Program-made: the position numbers and the translations under genes
Virus record (IMG/VR): IMGVR_UViG_3300032240_000453
Span: 1 to 32,532 of that record
Source: a virus
DNA length: 32,532 nucleotides
Direction: 5' to 3' (one strand)
The notes under the pieces: model-generated
Told to the model about the DNA's origin: nothing
The model's input: only the letters and a program-made list of their open reading frames with translations
Database searches by the model: none
In this document: piece by piece, positions 11,788 to 12,780 of the stretch
Numbering within the stretch: the stretch's first letter is position 1
Layout: the number at the start of each line of letters is the position of its first letter

Positions 11788-12001
11788 AAGACTTGCTTAC
11801 CAGCTTATTAATCGTGGATATAAGCACATTGGGGCAAAGCAAATATTTGAAGTAATACGTTGGAATACTATGATTACCGGTAACGATGGATTCAAAGTAA
11901 ACAATACTTATACTTCTGATTATGCAAGGCTATTTGAGAAAGATCATCCGATTTATGCTGGAATATTTCGCAAAAGACTTTGCAAATTAAAAGTAGATTA
12001 G
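11732..12001 (+). CDS. Conserved phage-type protein of unknown function, 89 residues
   Basis: The block VIRWNTMITGNDGFKVNN, then YARLFEKDHPIYAGIFRKR, is a pattern I know from many small phage proteins without assigned function. The first half is helical and basic, and the second half has the conserved aromatic and Arg residues. A nucleic-acid-binding role is plausible from charge only. It is the last gene before the leader and terminator at 12002-12114, so it closes the early operon. Confidence 0.65.
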   Translation: MRSFKKYHEENPQIYTEFKRLAYQLINRGYKHIGAKQIFEVIRWNTMITGNDGFKVNNTYTSDYARLFEKDHPIYAGIFRKRLCKLKVD

Positions 12002-12009
12002 TATATTGC
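11979..12009 (+). promoter_or_regulatory. Bacteroidetes-type promoter before the leader RNA
   Basis: TTTG (11979-11982) is followed by a 19-base spacer and TATATTGC (12002-12009), close to the -33 TTTG / -7 TAnnTTTG form of Bacteroidetes promoters. It overlaps the end of the previous gene. A start near 12014 would give a leader of about 100 bases before the next ATG. The last two bases of the -7 box deviate from the consensus. Confidence 0.5.
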
Positions 12010-12013
12010 AAAA

Positions 12014-12104
12014 CGATAAGCGAAGTCTGTGAGAGGGTTTCGGTTATTTAAGGGGTTAAAAAACCACAAAGCCAGTTCCAATCTCTCACTTGGGCTGGCT
12101 TTTT
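12014..12104 (+). ncRNA. Candidate leader or small RNA ending at a terminator
   Basis: The 12002-12114 gap has no ATG and no ORF. Between the promoter-like boxes and the terminator lie GTGAGAG (12029-12035), a small GGTT/AACC hairpin at 12054-12064, and the terminator. The terminator loop contains CTCTCAC (12082-12088), an exact complement of the upstream GTGAGAG. The RNA could fold either as terminator or as a long-range pairing, or form both as a pseudoknot. It may be an attenuator for the replication genes or a free small RNA. Confidence 0.4.
12067..12104 (+). terminator. Rho-independent terminator before the replication gene
   Basis: AAAGCCAG (12067-12074) pairs with CTGGCTTT (12094-12101). 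CCAA (12077-12080) pairs with TTGG (12089-12092) inside it, and a T run follows. It ends transcripts from the early operon or from the leader promoter 11 bp before the next gene, so expression of that gene needs read-through or antitermination. Confidence 0.85.
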
Positions 12105-12114
12105 TATTTGACTA

Positions 12115-12780
12115 ATGAAATATTTCCTACATGATTCAAATTCATTTAACGATGAAAAAATAACGGAACTCTATCTTGAGTTTGGTTATGAAGGGCTTGG
12201 ATTATTTTATACGATCCTTGAAAAACTTGCATTGCAAGAAAAACCGATAAAGACTAATGTAATAAAACATCAGTTAAATGTTGGTAAAAAGTTAGATAAA
12301 TGCTGGAAGTTTATGGAAGAAATTGACTTAATATCATCAAATAATGGTGAAACTTTCAACAAACAATTGCTAAACTTTAGTGAAAAGTATCAAGTTAAAA
12401 AAGAAAAAAATGCAAAACGAATTGCAGAATGGCGTGAAAATCAATTAGTTAGCGAAAGTGTAACGCATTACAAAAGTGTTAGTAATACTCCTAAAGTAAA
12501 GGAAAGTAAAGTAAAGGAAAGTAAAGTAAATATATCTTTAAGCGTTCAACTTTTGCAATATGTTGTTGAATTAGGAGATGAATATGATAACTTTTATTCT
12601 TATTGGACTGAAAAAGATAAAAAAGGAAAAGAGAGATGGGAAAACGAAAAGTATTTTGATATTAGCAGAAGAATAAAAACTTGGATTACTAACTCAACTA
12701 AATTTAAAACTAATGGAACTAACAACGAATCGAAACTCGGAACATCAGCTGCAAGAATGGAAGCCCTCCGTAACTGGTAA
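12115..12780 (+). CDS. Replication protein with DUF4373 (Lin1244/Lin1753-type) N-terminal domain
   Basis: This 221-residue protein has an N-terminal DUF4373-type block: YFLHDSNSFNDEKITELYLE at 3-22, then YEGLGLFYTILEKL, a winged-helix replication-initiator-like fold. A linker KVKESKVKESKV (about 127-138) follows, coded by iteron-like DNA repeats. The C-terminal domain has FYSYWTEKDKKGKERWENEK and an ISRRIKTWI helix, as in phage replication proteins with DnaD-like tails. It probably binds the origin and recruits the host helicase. It overlaps the next gene by 68 bp. Replication identity comes from family memory and context. Confidence 0.75.
   Translation: MKYFLHDSNSFNDEKITELYLEFGYEGLGLFYTILEKLALQEKPIKTNVIKHQLNVGKKLDKCWKFMEEIDLISSNNGETFNKQLLNFSEKYQVKKEKNAKRIAEWRENQLVSESVTHYKSVSNTPKVKESKVKESKVNISLSVQLLQYVVELGDEYDNFYSYWTEKDKKGKERWENEKYFDISRRIKTWITNSTKFKTNGTNNESKLGTSAARMEALRNW
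12493..12530 (+). repeat. Iteron-like direct repeats inside the replication gene
   Basis: The 15-base unit AAAGTAAAGGAAAGT occurs at 12493-12507 and 12508-12522, with a third partial copy to 12530. The unit is 15 bases and so keeps frame. Repeats inside a replication initiator gene, as in phage lambda O, often form the origin. A neutral linker repeat is the alternative. Confidence 0.6.

Follow-up and report, generated by a model that had tools for sequence, protein, structure and literature searches.

Many viruses that apparently infect Flavobacteria and their relatives appear to carry a predicted leader RNA in front of a DNA-replication gene, in which the loop of a 5′ hairpin is complementary to the loop of the intrinsic terminator. 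Here, the leader is described in the window, which is the whole stretch of DNA that was analysed (IMG/VR virus record IMGVR_UViG_3300032240_000453, positions 1 to 32,532, 32,532 bases), in its relatives and in leaders of unrelated sequence. We consider it reasonably probable that the unit is a kissing-loop attenuator, which would set transcription into the initiator operon and leave a stable RNA of about 92 bases.

Anatomy and genomic place of the leader

In the window, the unit stands directly before a replication initiator gene, and its features are as follows.

12014-12105, + strand: promoter-leader-terminator unit, ending 9 bases before the initiator ATG
11979-12009, + strand: promoter form of the Bacteroidota type (TTTG at 11979-11982, 19-base spacer, TATATTGC at 12002-12009)
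12015-12048, + strand: P1, the 5′ hairpin, with stems 12015-12019/12044-12048 and 12021-12028/12035-12042 (from folding and covariation)
12029-12035, + strand: seed GTGAGAG in the P1 loop, pairing with 12083-12089
12054-12065, + strand: P2, a small hairpin (GGTT-AAAA-AACC) located between P1 and P3 (from the alignment)
12068-12105, + strand: P3, the intrinsic terminator, with hairpin 12068-12102 and T-run 12100-12105 (from folding)
12083-12089, + strand: antiseed CTCTCAC in the terminator loop, the exact complement of 12029-12035 and covarying with the seed
12115-12780, + strand: replication initiator gene of the Lin1244/Lin1753 N-terminal family (Pfam PF14297), 221 aa (from Pfam and PHROG)

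Transcription would be expected to start near 12014-12016. A TATATTTG-like box lies 8-25 bases upstream of the seed loop in most leader classes, and it is present too in the aligned relatives of the window. P1 folds at -10.2 kcal/mol (z -2.9) and P3 at -16.2 kcal/mol (z -5.2), with no shuffled sequence folding as well as P3, and the whole leader has a folding z of -2.8. The middle of the P1 stem holds a purine.G mismatch (12020/12043), which is G.G or A.G in 35 of the 42 aligned leaders. P2 is paired in 92% of the alignment cells, and several other leader classes are without it. No ORF of at least 60 aa starts between 12002 and 12114, and the seed GTGAGAG and its + strand complement occur once each within the window. 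At the gathering score, no Rfam family matched anywhere in the window; below threshold there were chance-level matches only, the best of them to atoC RNA (RF01733). These results agree with the first-pass annotation, which had described a TTTG-19-TATATTGC promoter form, a leader without an ORF, a strong terminator directly before the replication gene and exact complementarity of the terminator loop to the GTGAGAG upstream.

The initiator matched Pfam Lin1244_N with E 2.3e-5, just over the gathering score, and a PHROG replication initiation protein family weakly. Since the neighbouring genes include an ERF annealing protein, a C5 DNA methylase, an N6/N4 DNA methylase and RusA, the initiator lies in a replication-recombination module. 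A DNA-pattern scan that was blind to protein returned 76 places; at nearly all of them an ATG follows about 9-20 bases past the terminator, and the initiator is either the first gene or lies within about 800 bases where a small ORF is inserted. Thus, the unit heads the initiator operon regardless of the first ORF. One record, IMGVR_UViG_3300027969_000114 (59,277 bases; L219 and L281), has two leaders and two different initiators, and is perhaps two phage genomes joined in assembly.

The surroundings of the leader also bear on an origin-linked RNA, that is, a primer, an R-loop former or a transcriptional activator of the origin, with a role like that of ColE1 RNA II or of transcription at ori lambda. 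Inside the initiator gene there are iteron-like repeats (TAAAGTAAAGGAAAG, in tandem at 12492-12530, 2.6 copies, 100% identity), which may possibly be the origin of replication, and similar repeats occur in several relatives. In 10 of 16 records, the minimum of the detrended cumulative GC skew falls no more than about 2.3 kb from the RNA, which is a weak test, as the records are akin to one another, are in part fragments with unknown ends, and the counts are uncorrected for phylogeny. A point against such a role is that the RNA would stop at an intrinsic terminator, and we consider this role rather improbable. The Danklef initiator has ACAAAGCAC-type repeats.

Pairing and covariation in close relatives

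Relatives of the initiator gene were gathered from viral contigs, and 42 leaders were aligned. Over P1, P2, P3 and the loop-loop helix, 89% of the cells pair, compared to 32-48% in slid controls, and none of 500 shuffles reached any of five measures. The kissing helix has compensatory changes in six of its eight pairs, and all ten scored pairs of P1 change on both sides among the relatives. In the 36 closest rows, all 252 of 252 cells of the kissing helix are Watson-Crick, across the loop variants GTGAGAG, GTAGGAG, GTCGGAG, GTGGTAG, GTCGTAG and GTGGAAG; kinship among the sequences inflates such cell counts, not the number of distinct loop pairs. All helices of these rows together hold 25 G.U and 0 A.C cells, which argues that selection acts on the + strand RNA rather than on DNA or on the opposite strand. 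A reading of the loop as under diversifying selection was rejected; the pairs of the P1 stem are equally variable, and no excess is claimed.

The first-pass annotation had offered three readings, an attenuator that times replication, a small RNA of about 90 bases and a pseudoknotted RNA that controls read-through, and had named loss of the pairing in relatives as one refutation test. Compensatory changes keep the pairing in the relatives and support the pseudoknotted RNA in the form of kissing loops. The predicted RNA of about 90 bases is supported anatomically, by its own promoter form and strong terminator. A covariance-model search, as that annotation had suggested, found the element in 18 of 31 virus records, with a single copy in each. 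Taken together, these results demonstrate an RNA structure whose pairing, including that between the loops, is selected on the + strand, and which occurs as one element per record at a fixed place before the initiator operon.

Recurrence in leaders of distinct sequence

Leaders before other initiators have no alignable sequence in common and follow the same plan. Of 227 initiator loci, 179 have a T-run no more than 45 bases from the start, and a simple rule based on shared words sorted these 179 loci into 24 sequence classes. In 19 of the 24 classes, a count that is uncorrected for phylogeny and does not equal the number of independent origins, 7-10 bases of the terminator loop region are complementary to the region upstream. 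As a control, swapped partners gave 6.2% (552 pairs), a rate raised by kinship and similar loops among some of the 24 classes, so that the swap test is conservative. The remaining five classes appear to represent ends of coding regions that lack a terminator, and not leaders. When both strands of 21 virus records were searched whole (mostly metagenomic fragments, picked via initiator or methylase homology), 28 kissing terminators were found compared to 7.0 in shuffles; 18 of them stand before an initiator operon, and the ten elsewhere are near the shuffled number.

Both partners are hairpin loops in most classes, often of exactly 7 bases, with the exception of L323, L106, L451 and partly L453, whose minimum-energy folds do not clearly show the partners as two distinct hairpin loops. 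The seed and the antiseed are 38-55 bases apart in most classes, and in nearly all of them the T-run follows the antiseed after 8-21 bases. The genes downstream encode Lin1244-type initiators, other winged-helix-like initiators and a 775-aa primase-helicase-like protein, the family names of the unscanned proteins being our reading of their sequence. That the plan recurs in many classes of distinct sequence, ahead of replication genes of several unrelated kinds, points to a strong need that these viruses have in common.

Self-complementary terminators of a second kind (ACCGCCAAG / CTTGGCGGT) were seen at L110:7220-7260, L133:7202-7242, L129:5331-5371 and L160:932-972, where they lie right behind a promoter box, downstream of a C5 methylase gene and not before an initiator. 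In addition, L132:5686-5730 and L142:4972-4997 have a hairpin-plus-terminator pair upstream of a C5 methylase gene, with compensated loops (CGGAATC vs CGACGAC).

An alternative is an ordinary promoter with an insulating terminator, and a complementarity that arose by chance; terminators between operons are common, and a lone 7-base match is weak evidence. However, 252 of 252 pairs with compensatory changes, and 19 of 24 classes compared to 6% when swapped, leave that reading hardly credible, and chance pairing is excluded. The classes bear as well on a leader that binds a protein or a ligand, such that the initiator, or a Rom-like reader of the kissing-loop shape, controls termination or translation of its own mRNA. 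Conservation lies in the shape and not in the sequence, the structure directly adjoins the start codon, and most type-A relatives keep the purine.G mismatch of P1, all of which would suit a binding site. Across the classes, however, there is no aptamer-like conserved unpaired core, and the initiator types downstream are unrelated; we regard this alternative as quite improbable.

Distribution and host range

Several cultured phages have the design before the replication module, namely Polaribacter phages Danklef_1 and Freya_1 (GGTGGAA/TTCCACC), Tenacibaculum phage JQ (a 10-base match) and Flavobacterium phage elemoE_10-3D (GTGGAGG/CCTCCAC). No such design was found at the places examined in Bacteroides phages B124-14, VA7 and BF698P1, or at those examined in Vibrio, Staphylococcus and Geobacillus phages with related initiators. 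This distribution points to a design that would belong to phages of Flavobacteriia. We infer the host of the window from two sources only, its promoter form and the cultured relatives. Among prophage-like initiators in bacterial genomes, 0 of 12 loci had the design, one of them (L208) with too little upstream sequence. When 299 genomes from a single host family were searched with a covariance model, under stricter filters and without a positive control, no match was obtained, and DNA searches with the window region or with one leader in a cultured-phage collection gave none either.

RNA control of replication initiators is textbook knowledge for plasmids. In the open-access literature, with subscription papers and preprints outside the coverage, no description of the design was found, and the open-access literature searched held nothing comparable for phages of Bacteroidota. 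In the boldest reading, which we consider possible rather than likely, the self-kissing terminator would be a previously undescribed and repeatedly maintained control of phage DNA replication. The cultured phages Danklef, Freya, JQ and elemo make the design directly testable, and the naturally diversified set of kissing-loop terminators could be useful for RNA circuit design.

Proposed mechanism

Since the design recurs before unrelated replication genes, attenuation of the replication gene would be the best reading of the unit. In the kissing-loop attenuator, a dedicated promoter would drive a leader of about 92 bases, in which P1 offers a loop of 7-8 bases and the intrinsic terminator offers an exactly complementary loop. 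Most transcripts would stop at the T-run and give a compact and stable RNA, read-through would be the regulated step that supplies the initiator mRNA, and the kissing may either tune the termination decision or stabilise the finished RNA. Control of termination, timing and any action in trans are what we infer from this arrangement. The loop-loop helix and the terminator stem can coexist, so that the leader shows no antiterminator of the classical kind, and from the sequence the kissing could either raise or lower termination.

RNA polymerase covers about 14 bases of RNA. The antiseed, 8-21 bases before the T-run, would therefore leave the polymerase at about the time when termination is decided, and P1 could meet it then. 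In the nascent chain, P1 could catch the emerging terminator loop at the polymerase and thereby delay the terminator; the finished RNAs could build up with the phage copies, occupy P1 in trans and favour termination, and the outcome would be that initiator synthesis drops as the copy number rises. This feedback on copy number, through capture by P1 and through accumulated RNA copies, is put forward tentatively. Self-attenuation by RNA copies is attractive because it would couple the initiator supply to the phage copy number. In the finished RNA, however, the loops are hidden, which makes action in trans less plausible, and we consider such self-attenuation possible rather than likely. A self-kissing terminator with a drifting loop might also serve as a private code for each phage, with copy-number-dependent self-attenuation and possibly incompatibility between co-infecting relatives of the same code, an idea that we advance with some doubt.

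The RNA might instead work on its own as a trans-acting small RNA, with host RNAs or co-infecting phages as its targets, or as a decoy for a protein, its adjacency to the initiator being synteny only. Its own promoter form, the strong terminator, the single copy per record and the lack of coding capacity would fit such a role. However, the loop drifts freely provided that the internal pairing stays, unlike a seed for a fixed host target, and unrelated leaders stand before unrelated initiator genes. In addition, seed and antiseed each occur only once in the window and in seven relatives, and a phage-internal trans target was rejected on this ground. We consider this explanation unlikely. Several GTAGGAG phages have extra copies, in numbers like those of foreign seeds and mostly without clear context.

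Comparison with known systems

In ColE1 RNA I/RNA II, seven-base loops are fully paired loop to loop in the control of replication. The kissing-loop attenuator would share with it the full loop-loop pairing of seven-base loops and the control of replication; the ColE1 loops are on separate antisense RNAs, whereas here they are in cis. The Rfam atoC RNA is similar in length, but its match scored 18.7 bits against a gathering score of 50, with E 0.37, which is chance level. As in attenuators in general, the promoter form, P1, P3 and the ATG follow in this order, with narrow spacing over the classes.

In pT181, the repC leader is a terminator switch that kisses with an antisense RNA complementary to its 5′ part, and this separate antisense RNA frees the terminator from the antiterminator (PMC4878617). 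The likeness consists of a leader before a replication initiator gene, an intrinsic terminator (here at 12068-12105) and loop-loop kissing. Here, however, one RNA carries both loops, and it is the terminator loop itself with which the 5′ loop pairs. An upstream match to the 5′ stem arm of the terminator, which would make an antiterminator, is absent from the leader, the match being to the terminator loop.

The CI RNA of satellite phage P4 arises by processing of a transcript; it pairs with flanking sites on either side (seqA and seqC) and stops transcription into the replication genes (PMC4825925). Common to both are a short untranslated RNA upstream of phage replication genes, complementarity to its own leader and premature termination, whereas the RNA described here would end at an intrinsic terminator. 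When sites on both sides, as in P4/C4, were looked for among 29 seeds, the upstream one was always present, and a downstream 7-base seed copy was found only in the L041 class. A P4-like third site as a general rule was thus rejected, as only the L041/L051 class has a copy near the start codon. At L041:3932-4001 and L296:1390-1501, this third seed copy (AACACAC in L041, ACAGCAC in L051/L296) sits in a small hairpin immediately upstream of the initiator ATG, resembling the seqA-CI-seqC arrangement of P4. Taken together, and departing from pT181 and from P4 CI in a tested defining feature of each, the predicted device is like both of them in outline.
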